Positions 1 to 26,005 of a DNA stretch of 64,000 bases are shown here, piece by piece. Position numbers and translations under genes: made by a program. The notes beneath the pieces are model-generated. The model did no database searches and had not been told where the DNA came from. It was given only the letters and a program-made list of their open reading frames with translations. The stretch comes from Pachyseris speciosa (taxonomy: Eukaryota; Cnidaria; Anthozoa; Scleractinia; Pachyseridae), in the NCBI GenBank assembly GCA_016490735.1, contig JAEMWC010000236.1:260001-324000 (forward strand), given 5' to 3'. Numbering within the stretch: the first letter of the stretch is position 1; each line of letters starts with the position of its first letter.

Positions 1-3000
1 AGATTTACTTGGAGTCAATCAGAACCTTTGATTTTTTCTATACTTGACTATTGGCTTATTTCCAATTCTTTATCTGATAACGTTAGCGATGTTGATATGA
101 TATCTGCCATAAAAACTGACCACTCCGCAATAATAATAGAGTTGCAAGATATTGATGATCGGGTAAAGGGCCCAGGACATTGGAAATTGAATTGTTCCCT
201 TCTTAATGATAAACGATACGTTGATGAAATAAATTCTCTTTTACCTACTTGGCTTCAAGAAGGGAAGCAAGATCTAAGTGATCCGCGCTCTGTTTGGGAC
301 TGGATGAAATACAATATTAAGAAATATTCTAGACAATATTCGATTCATAAATGCAACTTAAAGGAGCACTGTCACCGAAATTTTTGCTGTTTTGGTTCAA
401 TTCTGCCAAAATTACTGCCTTTTACCTGTTATCGTGCAAACAATGCTCCTACAGAATCAGCAAGATGAATTCCAATGAAATTTTAGCAGGAAGAGCTAAC
501 CATAATAATTTTTTGGGTGATTTTTCAATGCATAGCTTGAAATTTTGAAAAAACTGGCAAGTTTTTTCAAATTTCAATCCATTTCCATCCTCGTCATCTT
601 AGATGAAATACAGAAGTTTATAGTGTCAATGCAGTACTACAGTCTTTGGCAAAAAAACTAGACCATTATTTCAAGATTTCCACTGATGCATTGGCAGTTT
701 TAAGCTTTCTAAAGTGATGGTACAATAGCGTGACACTGCCCCTTTAAGGAAAGCAGAAGAGCAGCGCTTAAACAAAGAATTTCAAGAAGCCTCATTAGCT
801 TTTCAAAATAACCCTAGTCAAGATAACTTATCAGCTTTAAATGTCTTGAAAGAAAAAATGGAACAGCTATATGAAAAAGAAGTCGAGGGTATAATCATTA
901 GATCACGAGCTAGGTGGTATGAGCACGGGGAAAAAAATGTAAATACTTCTTTAATTTAGAAAAACGCAATCATTAGAAAACACATTCGAAAGCTTCGCCT
1001 GAGTGGTGTCATCACAACAGACCCTTTTGAAATCTTAGAAGCTGAGAGAAATTTTTATGAAAATCTTTATAAATCGCGAAGAAAATCGATCCTCTGATGA
1101 AACCGAACGCTATTTCTGTCTAGAGGACTTACCAATACCAACACTTTCAAAATGAATCTAGAAATCATGTTGAAGGGTTAATAAGCACTGAAGAATGTAG
1201 TAAAGTTCTGAACTCCTTTCCATCAGATAAGGTCCCCGGAAATGATGGATTACCTTAGAATTTTATAAGACTTTTTGGAACTTCCTGGGGGAACCTTTAG
1301 TTGAATGTTTCAATATATCTTTTGAAAAAGGAATAATGAGCCCGTCACAAAGACAGGCTGTCATTACACTTATCGAGAAAAAAGACCAAGACCGCTGTGA
1401 TCTTAAAAACTGGAGACCAATTTCCCTTTTGAATGTTGATGCGAAGATAGCTTCAAAAGTTATTGCAGAAAGAATGAAGCGTGTTTTACCTAATTTAGTC
1501 CATAATAATCAGACAGGATATATTCCAGGCAGAAATATTAGTGAAAATATACGCTCAATTCTCGACATAATGGAGTACACAAAGGCGAAGAAATTACCAG
1601 GTCTTTTGTTATTTATCGACTTTGAGAAGGCTTTTGATAGTCTGGAATGGGAATTTCTTGAAAAGTGTTTGATTAGATTTGGTTTTGGACCTGATTTTAT
1701 AAGATGGGTCAGTATTTTCTATAATGATATTCAAAGCTGCATTATAAACAATGGTTTTATGCTCTCATTATTTTAAGATAGGCCGTGGAGTTAGGCAGGG
1801 GGACCCTCTCTCCCCATATCTGTTTGTGACTGCAGTTGAAACTCTGGCGATAAGTATCAGAAACCAAGAGAGTATCAAAGGAATAACAATAAATGGTTTG
1901 GAAACTAAATTGCTGCAGTTTGCTGATGACACAACTGCTGTTTTATCAGACTTGGATTCGGCTAGGGCTTTGTTTAAAATACTTGAACGTTTTGAGAAAG
2001 CTTCAGGGCTAACACTTAATGTCACGAAAACGGAAGCAATGTGGGTTGGGTCCCTTCAGAACTGTGACGATCAACCACTTGGGGATGAGTGGAAAACGTG
2101 TTAAATTTTTAGGAATTTTTATTACATATGATGTACAGCTTCTAGTTGAGAAAAACTTTAAACAAAGGTTGAAAAAAATTAAGAATTTAATAAATTTATG
2201 GAAGTCAAGAGGTTTGTCAATTCATGGAAAGGTAAACATCATAAAAGCAATTCTTCTTCCTATATTGATATATCCTAGCTCTGTGATTTCCATTCCGTCT
2301 AAGATCATAAAAGAATTGAACAACCTAGTATTTCAGTTTTTATGGAACGGAAAAGACAAAGTCATCCGACGTTCAACTTATGCACCTTACGACCAAGGTG
2401 GCCTTAGAATGGTAGACTATGAAACTATGGTAAAAGCGTTGAGGTTGAGCTGGTTAAAACGAATTACCAACGAAGATTCATCGGGTTTTTGGAAGTCTTA
2501 CCTTGACTACCTTTTGGAGAGCCAAGGGGGTCTTTTTTTATTTCAGTGTAATTATGAGGCAAACCAAGTATGCGTTTCAACAGCCTTTTATCAAGAATTA
2601 TTAATATGGTGGTCAAGTATAAGAGAAATTGAAGATCCCAACAACGTTTACAAATACATCTTATGGAACAACAAAGAGATAAAAATTGATGGTAAAAGTG
2701 TGTTTTATAAACCGTATTTCGATAAGCATATAAAATACACAAGTGATCTGTTTTACAATATGTCAAACGTTGAGTCTTTTAACGTTGTCAGAAGTGCAGG
2801 TTTGACAAAATCAAACTTCCTTGTATGGACTGGTCTCAGGAAATCCGTTCCTCTGAGACTGCGGGTCAACTTACCCAATTTTAAGGTCATCTTTGATTTA
2901 GAAAATTTTAAATGTCACGACATATTATTGCTTTCTTATAAAACAAAAATTGGAAAAGCCAAGCAAATGGGCTAAGTTGAGAGAAGAATTTAACTTAGAA

Positions 3001-3733
3001 GATCAGCAAGTTTCAGCGGCTTTCTTGTTGAACCTTACTTACGCTCCTTTCAGTATAAAGTATTAAACTCCATCCTGTATACGAATGACCTGCTGTGTAA
3101 AATAGGTTACATTTCCAATCCCGACTGCTCTTTTTGCCATCAGGCGACAGAAACTATATCCCATATCATGTTTGATTGTTCTTTTTCGAACGCTTTTTGG
3201 AATGAGGTTAATGATAACATTTTAAACAAACTGAAGAGCTGCGGAGGTCTCTCGCTCGCCTATTGTGATGTTATAATAGGGCTCTTAAAGGAGGAGTTGG
3301 ATCTAATTAATTATGTATTAATTCTAGGAAAATCATGTTTGTGGTCTTGTCGATGTAAATTACTCAAACCTTCCTTAAGTCATTTTAGGAGAATTTTTAT
3401 CAATAAATATGAGACAGAGAAACACGTTTATTTCAAATTAAATCAAATGAATCTCTTCCAAAAAAAATGGAAGAGGTTTGAGGAAATATGATCAGTTCCT
3501 AACTAAAGTAGAAATCTGTGTTATTAACATTATCAAGGCAAGTATGCATCAGTAAAGTAAGTAGCAAGTATAAATTATGATGACTGATTGTGTAAAACAA
3601 TGTAGTTCGTACGGTATGGTGTCGTTGTTACCTGTAAACGAAAATTTATTTAATCAATTTGTATTTAATCTTTGTAAAATGACTTGTAAATGTGTAATTG
3701 TGAATATAATAAAAAAAACGTAAAAACAAAAAA
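1..3733 (+). mobile_element. Tx1/L1-like LINE, copy 1, cut by the window edge and disabled
   Basis: Remains of ORF2 of a non-LTR retrotransposon, which would encode an APE-type endonuclease and a reverse transcriptase for target-primed insertion. The endonuclease end reads through LDYWLIS and TDHSA (about 40-130). The RT shows NWRPISLLN, the box A motif FIDFEKAFDS (about 1610-1640), QGDPLSPYLF (about 1797-1826) and the active site FADDT (about 1919-1933). A zinc-knuckle-like C-x2-C...H...C tail lies near 3125-3180. Frame breaks near 940 and 1775 and a stop near 1257 show that it is dead. The 3' end is A-rich (about 3705-3733) and abuts TIMP exon 2 directly. In the endonuclease motif the usual SRLDYW reads SILDYW. 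The Tx1/L1 placement rests on motif style and is an inference. Confidence 0.9.
362..743. mobile_element. 382-bp MITE with TTAA target duplication, inserted in LINE copy 1
   Basis: The terminal inverted repeats read AGGAGCACTGTCAC on the left and, inverted, AGGGGCAGTGTCAC on the right. TTAA occurs at 358-361 and again at 744-747. LINE copy 2 has one uninterrupted TTAA at the matching place (about 12047), so it gives the empty site. TTAA duplication is typical of piggyBac-type transposition. No transposase frame is present, so this is a non-autonomous element. Confidence 0.88.
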
Positions 3734-25500: not shown

Positions 25501-26005
25501 TCTTGATACAATTACCTGCGAGCGCTGGAAAGTCTTCGATTGCTGAAATCTCACTAGTCCAGCAGAATTCTACTGATCAAAATACCACCTTTGAAGTCTC
25601 GTTAAACAGAAAAAAAACACCCGAATTATGCTGCGGGTAGATAAAAATAATGATCTTTGATCCTCAACGGATGTATGCTGCTACCAGCTATTTTTGCTTC
25701 AAAAAAAATATCAAGGAAAATAAAGCCATATCTTTTGCTGACAATGGGTACCCTTATACTATAATTTATAAACTGTTGTAGCAGGTTTTTGCTTACCAGT
25801 CTGTATCGGGCGAATCAATTACTAAAAGTATCTTCATCTTTTTGGCGGCGGGCGATCCTCTTGGAGGCAAACTAACATCTTCTTTTGAATCATTTCGCGT
25901 TTTTGTTGGAGAGCTTGGACTTGTTGTTCGTTCGTTATCGCGCGAAGGGCGAAAGTTGCTTAGATTTACACCGCCGGAAATCTTCAGCTTCTGCAAAAAC
26001 TCCAT
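19513..26005 (-). CDS. SYN: Synapsin, first five coding exons (3' part outside the window)
   Basis: Synapsin is a presynaptic phosphoprotein that tethers synaptic vesicles and has an ATP-grasp-like core. Exons on the minus strand are 25797-26005, 25219-25279, 21111-21202, 20592-20748 and 19513-19602. All junctions are GT-AG and in phase. They encode ILLVIDSPDTDW, then AKIFKGRK...DIRVEQ, AEFGDLNLASYSDS..., SFRPDFVLVRQS...GLQFGNVPSINSL...YNFAEKPWV, and FAQL...FPLVEQAYYPNYKEM, in the order of vertebrate and fly synapsins (B to early C domain). The start ATG at 26003-26005 has an in-frame TGA about 19 codons upstream and no Met between. This exon lacks the RRxS phosphosite block typical of vertebrate domain A but has several Ser/Thr-Pro sites. 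The next exon (lysine/ATP-binding part) was not found up to position 1. The introns are full of transposons. Confidence 0.93.
19695..20035 (+). mobile_element. 5'-truncated LINE fragment with (TTG)n tail, in synapsin intron 4
   Basis: Encodes the end of an ORF2: a zinc-knuckle-like LCSLC...ETHFLFRCPKY, then a stop at 19955-19957. The 3' end is AATAAAGC followed by TTG repeats. TGTTCAATATCC occurs on both sides (about 19683-19694 and 20036-20047), consistent with a target duplication. Confidence 0.8.
20138..20347. mobile_element. 210-bp MITE with GGGCCCGTTTCTCGA ends
   Basis: Left GGGGCCCGTTTCTCGAAGC, right the near inverse CTTTCGAGAAACGGGCCC. It lies in synapsin intron 4. Confidence 0.75.
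21488..22868. mobile_element. 1.38-kb element with inverted repeats of about 380 bp, in synapsin intron 2
   Basis: The outer ends ATGAATGAGTTGCCAGTAAT and their inverse at 22849-22868 match. The inverted arms continue to about 21880 and 22490 with scattered differences. The core between them has no recognisable frame, so this is a non-autonomous long-TIR DNA element. Confidence 0.8.
23385..23663. repeat. Cluster of CAACATTGTTG-type small palindromes
   Basis: Begins GGGCCGTTTGTTCAACA. Variants of CAACAATGTTG and ACAACATTGTTG recur at least six times. It looks like a diverged repeat family whose right end is lost or masked by the next element. Confidence 0.55.
23671..24223. mobile_element. 553-bp foldback element with a second palindrome inside
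   Basis: Outer ends TAGGGCCGTTTATACGAGAG and an inverse with two changes. The outer arms, carrying AAGCCGCGGCTTA blocks, run to about 23757 and from about 24140. Inside, 24005-24120 is a nearly perfect palindrome (GTCAAGATGGCGGGATATTG and inverse). Confidence 0.8.

Follow-up and report, generated by a model that had tools for sequence, protein, structure and literature searches.

In the accessible text of Candiani et al (2010; PMC2825198), a TIMP gene in reverse orientation is described as nested in the synapsin gene of all examined species except C. elegans. The mammalian pairs SYN1/TIMP1, SYN2/TIMP4, and SYN3/TIMP3 have this arrangement (PMC2825198), with mouse Timp4 placed in intron 5 of Syn2 by the title of a reference listed in PMC2599898, and the number of nested TIMP genes is given as one for Nematostella vectensis, two for Ciona, and 10 for sea urchin (PMC2825198). 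Here, the corresponding locus of the stony coral Pachyseris speciosa is described. It was encountered in a stretch of 64,000 nucleotides (the window; C236:260001–324000, where C236 is contig JAEMWC010000236.1 and a window coordinate is the C236 coordinate minus 260000), which an earlier note, made from the letters alone, had read as cnidarian DNA with TIMP genes inside a synapsin intron. The named synapsins nearest to the host are indeed those of the stony corals Montipora, Porites, and Acropora (92–93% identity). Very probably, the sole synapsin locus found holds, in its 64.6-kb intron 5, an array of TIMP genes on the opposite strand, which likely expanded in situ through tandem duplication and recombination; its predicted products are secreted metalloproteinase inhibitors.

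Like the Nematostella locus, that of Pachyseris combines a cnidarian host, a TIMP in a synapsin intron, and reverse orientation, and in both animals TIMPs also occur outside the locus (PMC2825198). However, one TIMP is nested in Nematostella, whereas the eight bodies of Pachyseris represent four classes, and its array also has paired leaders and one mosaic copy; furthermore, one Nematostella exon equals mammalian exons 6 and 7, whereas the Pachyseris equivalents seem to be separate exons 6 and 7. Strongylocentrotus purpuratus (ten) and Ciona (two) likewise carry several TIMPs in one synapsin intron, but these are deuterostome expansions and are stated, in the accessible text of PMC2825198, to exist without independent TIMPs; that text makes no mention of paired first exons. 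With the mammalian loci, Pachyseris shares the guest in reverse orientation and, with mouse Syn2, the ordinal position of the intron (a match by number), but mammals have one five-exon TIMP per locus, as opposed to two-exon TIMPs in an array. Thus, both cnidarian nesting and the existence of arrays were already known. The Nematostella locus rules out a first report of cnidarian nesting, and the view of the earlier note that the nesting predates the split of cnidarians and bilaterians agrees with that published case (PMC2825198), hence is not new. Among the literature matches listed (at most the best 20 of up to 98 papers), from a search that most subscription papers lay outside, none reported a TIMP array in a cnidarian, leaders in pairs, or copies of mosaic structure.

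The host gene was traced with P0009, the nearest synapsin (421 residues, bearing PF02078 and PF02750), which is 96% identical to the host over 100% of the query and appears to be mRNA-derived because its source contigs measure 2417 bp or less. The following features of the host lie in the window:

25797–26005, minus strand: synapsin exon 1 (ATG at 26005; GT–AG boundaries; 93% identical to P0009 residues 1–70)
25219–25279, minus strand: synapsin exon 2 (boundaries and P0009 mapping)
21111–21202, minus strand: synapsin exon 3 (boundaries and P0009 mapping)
20592–20748, minus strand: synapsin exon 4 (boundaries and P0009 mapping)
19513–19602, minus strand: synapsin exon 5 (ends in YYPNYKEM, followed by the donor gtaagt; Pfam Synapsin_C, 8.3e-9)
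1–19512, minus strand: the part of synapsin intron 5 inside the window (whole intron C236:214885–279512, 64,628 bp)

These exons are the five that the earlier note had read on the minus strand between 19513 and 26005, ending in YYPNYKEM, and both the GT–AG signals and the match of their joined product to synapsin II (1i7l; E 1.3e-56, residues 56–203 of 203) agree with it. That note had placed the remainder of the synapsin core outside the window and had pointed leftward on the minus strand for the next exon, which is where it was found, beyond the TIMP array: exon 6 (C236:214822–214884) starts 45 kb left of the window, ends ITPKFPVVVKVGHGNGGYGK, and carries GHGNGGYGK. It lies on the same contig and strand as exons 1–5 and not on another scaffold, and the later exons follow on the C236 minus strand, which rules out a synapsin ending at exon 5. 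P0009 maps in order on this strand from 286005 to 208043 (residues 1–379 and 386–421; about six residues near position 380 gave only a weak match, E 3.4), and its sequence runs across the joint between exons 5 and 6. GT–AG signals were present at every examined boundary from exon 1 through the start of exon 10. The synapsin exons, which follow one another in the expected sequence on a single contig's minus strand (C236:208043–286005), flank the TIMP array. In the whole assembly (983,672,442 bases in 2368 contigs, the scope of all genome-wide searches here), Synapsin_C (PF02750) matched four exons, all on the C236 minus strand, of which one falls inside the window and the other three at C236:211350–212822, and a single synapsin locus was found. 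The eight other measured introns are ∼0.3–4.0 kb long (accurate to within a few bases for some of the short ones), compared with 64,628 bp for intron 5; the figure of more than 19 kb in the earlier note falls far short of the actual size.

Intron 5 was searched for TIMP sequence by tblastn with leader and body queries, and for leaders also by a pattern scan of both strands. Genuine matches had E values from ∼1e-120 to 5e-4 (the weakest being the leader of gene A), whereas comparable queries with shuffled sequence, 400 in all, produced a single match (E 0.007) at the cut-off of E ≤ 0.01. The intron holds eight TIMP bodies and nine leaders, all on the plus strand, opposite to the host (8/8 and 9/9); the pattern scan returned the same nine plus-strand leaders and none on the minus strand of intron 5. 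Because some kilobases of intron 5 read N, these counts are lower bounds. From exon 6 toward exon 5, the genes follow one another as A, B, C, D, E', F, G, and H, those from E' onward lying in the window (four bodies and five leaders, plus strand, 3733–18530):

C236:220085 (leader) and 225576 (body), plus strand: TIMP A
C236:231615–232156, plus strand: TIMP B, body
C236:242021 (leader) and 244653 (body), plus strand: TIMP C
C236:246258 and 246773 (leaders) and 250307 (body), plus strand: TIMP D
window 3733–4224 (C236:263733), plus strand: TIMP body E', truncated at its 5' end at a long interspersed nuclear element (LINE); in-frame stop at 4033–4035, decayed
window 4432–4543 (C236:264432), plus strand: TIMP F leader 1 (CNC head)
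window 4945–5056 (C236:264945), plus strand: TIMP F leader 2 (CKC head)
window 6772–7316 (C236:266772), plus strand: TIMP F body (Pfam TIMP, 3.8e-20)
window 8990–9101 (C236:268990), plus strand: TIMP G leader (CKC head); its own body is LINE-truncated
window 15018–15515 (C236:275018), plus strand: TIMP body G, truncated at its 5' end at a LINE, otherwise open (Pfam TIMP, 4.4e-19)
window 15725–15836 (C236:275725), plus strand: TIMP H leader 1 (CNC head)
window 16238–16349 (C236:276238), plus strand: TIMP H leader 2 (CKC head)
window 17989–18530 (C236:277989), plus strand: TIMP H body (Pfam TIMP, 5.3e-20)

The multiplication of the guest inside the host intron, as proposed from the window, was thus borne out. 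The plus-strand bodies and leaders beyond exon 5 were confirmed as well, but the window contains only two complete TIMP genes (F and H), since two of its four bodies are LINE-truncated. Each gene is laid out in two exons separated by a phase-1 intron, with the donor after ADF-G and the acceptor before CC-ATC. For D, F, and H, the predicted splice joint is ADF^AIRAK, which recurs in proteins from elsewhere (AIRA- in P0004, P0006, and P0130; AIKA- in P0005 and P0131). Both exons are open from ATG to stop in C, D, F, and H.

The products are recognizable as TIMPs. The three of the four window body frames that were scanned all match Pfam TIMP (3.8e-20 to 4.4e-19), as do 9/9 members of the sequence set A1, and spliced H matches the family (PF00965) over its full profile (1–183 of 183, both N- and C-domain; 106 bits, E 2.2e-30). 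Against solved structures, an F1-like query (containing two spurious junction residues) found human TIMP-2 (3.5e-11). All nine intron leaders encode Cys1-X-Cys3 at the mature N-terminus plus Cys13, a stretch judged hydrophobic by eye precedes Cys1, and the partner cysteines of Cys1 and Cys3, which pair with body cysteines according to the accessible text of PMC9409782, are present in bodies A, C, D, F, and H. A fold model of the relative P0005, which is not a window protein, had a mean predicted local distance difference test (pLDDT) score of 74.8, best matched TIMP-2 (1br9; E 1.0e-9, template modeling [TM] score 0.48/0.55), and scored 0.83 by target length against the TIMP-3 N-domain (3cki). 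The array products are predicted, from sequence, to be secreted metalloproteinase inhibitors.

To place the bodies, a TIMP tree of 39 rows with seven intron bodies was used (E' was left out, and the placements of the long-branch sequences P0150, P0151, and P0152 were not used). Class A grouped with P0129 and others, including Orbicella P0134 and Porites P0135 (support 99/98), and class B with P0149 (100/98), both passing the tool's star; class C grouped with P0137 (91/85), and D, F, G, and H with D-type proteins including Oculina P0004 (86/98), both below the star. Because each class groups with proteins from elsewhere, the four classes (A, B, C, and D-type) likely predate the split of the sampled corals. 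A further TIMP class consists of P0145 (Oculina), P0147, and P0008; none of the seven treed intron bodies groups with it, and the C-terminal tails of P0145 and P0147 are hydrophobic and might serve to anchor them in a membrane. The contigs bearing Oculina P0004 and P0145 are equal in length, as are those of P0007 and P0008.

By contrast with this older layer, D, F, G, and H are probably recent copies, with the youngest located toward exon 5. Two LINE-like elements and a tandem segment accompany the copies that lie in the window:

744–3726, plus strand: LINE-like retroelement adjoining truncated body E' (RVT_1 at 1246–1776, 1.3e-20, and at 1748–2104, 1.3e-13; outer limits approximate)
11096–15011, plus strand: second LINE-like copy, adjoining body G (Exo_endo_phos 1.3e-14, RVT_1 1e-9, zf-RVT 2.1e-11; limits approximate)
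744–5464 and 12046–16760, no strand assigned: the two copies of the tandem segment, 97.8% identical to each other

The LINE-cut bodies E' and G share one common junction sequence and lie in the 97.8% identical segments, which points to a single LINE insertion that was likely duplicated later; both bodies are likely dead copies. Within the array, an 83-bp minisatellite unit also recurs as similar sequence at 10371–10677 and 17246–17414, and a perfect (TC)57 run occupies window 8597–8710.

Gene F is a mosaic: its leader 1 resembles that of H and its body that of D. Up to ∼C236:264870, it is 96–100% like H and 86–94% like D; between 264870 and 265370, it is about equally like both; and beyond 265470, as far as exon 2, the figures are 95–100% for D and 80–95% for H. 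The changeover thus falls near leader 2 and the beginning of intron 1. The bodies of F and H are more alike than their surroundings: exon 2 has one change at ∼113 synonymous sites (last four codons excluded), whereas 51/530 positions differ in the adjoining intron (p 3.6e-4 for the contrast with exon 2) and 27/391 in the 400 bases downstream of the body. Near-identity at silent sites next to a diverged intron and downstream flank suggests gene conversion in the F/H body. This comparison was confined to F and H; the intron figures for D–F (48%) and D–H (45%) were ascribed to alignment failures from an insertion in D and were not used.

The sequence of events could be pictured as follows. Synapsin splicing would remove the whole array along with intron 5, so that duplication inside the intron would be tolerated. 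Unequal crossing-over would add copies, the youngest near exon 5, and gene conversion would keep the TIMP bodies alike. Guest and host would stay joined, although copying-out has occurred, because breaks that free the array without damage to synapsin would be rarer.

Several observations weigh against an array of functional inhibitors that grew by duplication and recombination within the intron. In the assembly, the gene A leader lacks an ATG in frame (the gene is nevertheless open from leader to stop), and for body B, no recognizable leader was found in intron 5 by either tblastn or the pattern scan. Body B, otherwise open, also lacks both cysteine partners of Cys1 and Cys3; the same is true of its relative P0149. 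Because these partners are lost, class B probably does not inhibit in the standard way. The P0005 model falls below a pLDDT of 50 around Cys1 (residues 19–25), the part of intron 5 that reads N amounts to some kilobases, and the tandem segment could partly correspond to two alleles placed side by side in the assembly. Leader 2 of F is about equally like those of D and H. The recent copies show no sign of constraint since changing differences outnumber silent ones, though the counts are tiny: 0 silent and 2 changing sites between bodies D and F, 1 and 5 between H and D, and 0 and 3 between V-type leader D2 and that of G or H2 (counts of pN/pS, the ratio of amino acid–changing to silent differences, exclude the A and C leaders and, wherever H is compared, the final four codons). 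Finally, 8/16 listed TIMP matches lie outside the nest.

The D-type genes D, F, and H each have two leader exons, whose products are distinguished by mature residue 2 (Asn or Asp versus Lys), residues 5 and 14, and in D and F residue 6 too. According to the accessible text of PMC9409782 and PMC2599898, residue 2 of a TIMP contacts the S1' pocket of the protease, and its substitution shifts the choice of protease by TIMP-1 and is also of importance in TIMP-4. Each D-type gene is predicted to be read from two promoters, the paired leaders serving as alternative first exons on one body, and the Asn/Asp- and Lys-headed forms of that body would block different metalloproteinases, since residue 2 alters protease choice. 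It is conceivable, and proposed here tentatively, that the intron acts as a workshop for swapping heads, where a homogenized body receives different heads from paired first exons (residue 2 being Asn, Asp, or Lys), and where heads and bodies are traded by recombination in the shelter of a spliced-out intron.

The second leader of each pair may instead have a humbler origin, as the unused relic of a decayed tandem gene, with one leader spliced per body; this explanation falls just short of probable. A leader can outlast its body, as gene G demonstrates (its leader lies at window 8990 and its LINE-cut body at 15018), and D-type leaders outside the nest, at C236:123319 and 165114, have no D-type body listed nearby (the region is partly N). 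On the other side, D, F, and H have six leaders in total, each with an open frame, a hydrophobic stretch, the three cysteines, and a GT donor; within each pair, the two leaders differ less at amino acid–changing than at silent sites (pN/pS 0.35–0.42); and both kinds of head occur in proteins from elsewhere, the E-type head (CAEVHPQ) in P0004 of Oculina and the V-type, as CAVVHPQ or CAVIHPQ, in P0005, P0006, P0130, and P0131.

A different doubt concerns the duplication itself. The recent copies in the window might be partly an artifact of the assembly, with two haplotypes placed end to end, because window 744–5464 and 12046–16760 are 97.8% identical. Alleles in a coral could diverge to that level. 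However, the introns of F and H differ by ∼10%, the bodies of D and F are ∼16 kb apart with other sequence between them, and classes A, B, and C are far more diverged, which leaves the artifact an unlikely explanation. The nesting holds whether or not it applies to the recent copies.

Growth of the array inside intron 5 did not confine the family to it. The genome-wide search gave at least 16 TIMP matches; of those listed, eight lie in intron 5, three elsewhere on C236, and five on three other contigs, which rules out that TIMPs are restricted to the nest. At ∼125 kb and ∼167 kb of C236, on the minus strand, there are two further class C TIMP genes, each accompanied by one leader of class C and one of the D-type. 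The regions containing them (L020, C236:122001–132000; L021, 164001–174000) match C236:240618–246585 in inverted order, with 72–86% identity in pieces (those of at least 200 bases were listed), and are 93–99% like each other. They likely represent a piece of the array that was copied out of synapsin and then doubled. The remaining outside TIMPs are divergent, comprising three with the leader MGIVQLLF... and those on contigs C105 and C415. That shared regulation holds the pair together, with TIMP transcription or chromatin aiding synapsin expression or the reverse, would fit its reported occurrence in all examined species but C. elegans (accessible text of PMC2825198) but is improbable, given that half of the listed TIMP matches are outside synapsin and that the nested copy number varies greatly among animals.

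Elsewhere in the window, the self-matches listed include a near-perfect palindrome of ∼444 bp (29493–29936, 95.5% identical to its own reverse complement) and one of 233 bp (61631–61863). A 253-bp tandem repeat of 2.3 copies (62989–63574) contains tRNA-like matches at 63109–63182 and 63362–63435 with ambiguous anticodon, perhaps a tRNA-derived short interspersed element. An open frame of 750 residues (42324–44576, plus strand) has no Pfam match, nor do two frames on opposite strands (38132–38893, plus, 253 residues; 39253–39984, minus, 243 residues), which share a similar YFP-x-L stretch by eye.

The gene-within-gene pair of synapsin and TIMP spans sea anemone to mammals (accessible text of PMC2825198). 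A guest that has been multiplied, reshuffled, and partly exported, as in Pachyseris, helps to separate a pair held by function from one held by the difficulty of leaving, which single-copy loci cannot do, and the coral array offers a concrete test case for the diversification of an inhibitor family via first-exon swapping. Because metalloproteinases remodel the cnidarian mesoglea, at least in Hydra (accessible text of PMC9409782), the TIMP set may matter for coral tissue.

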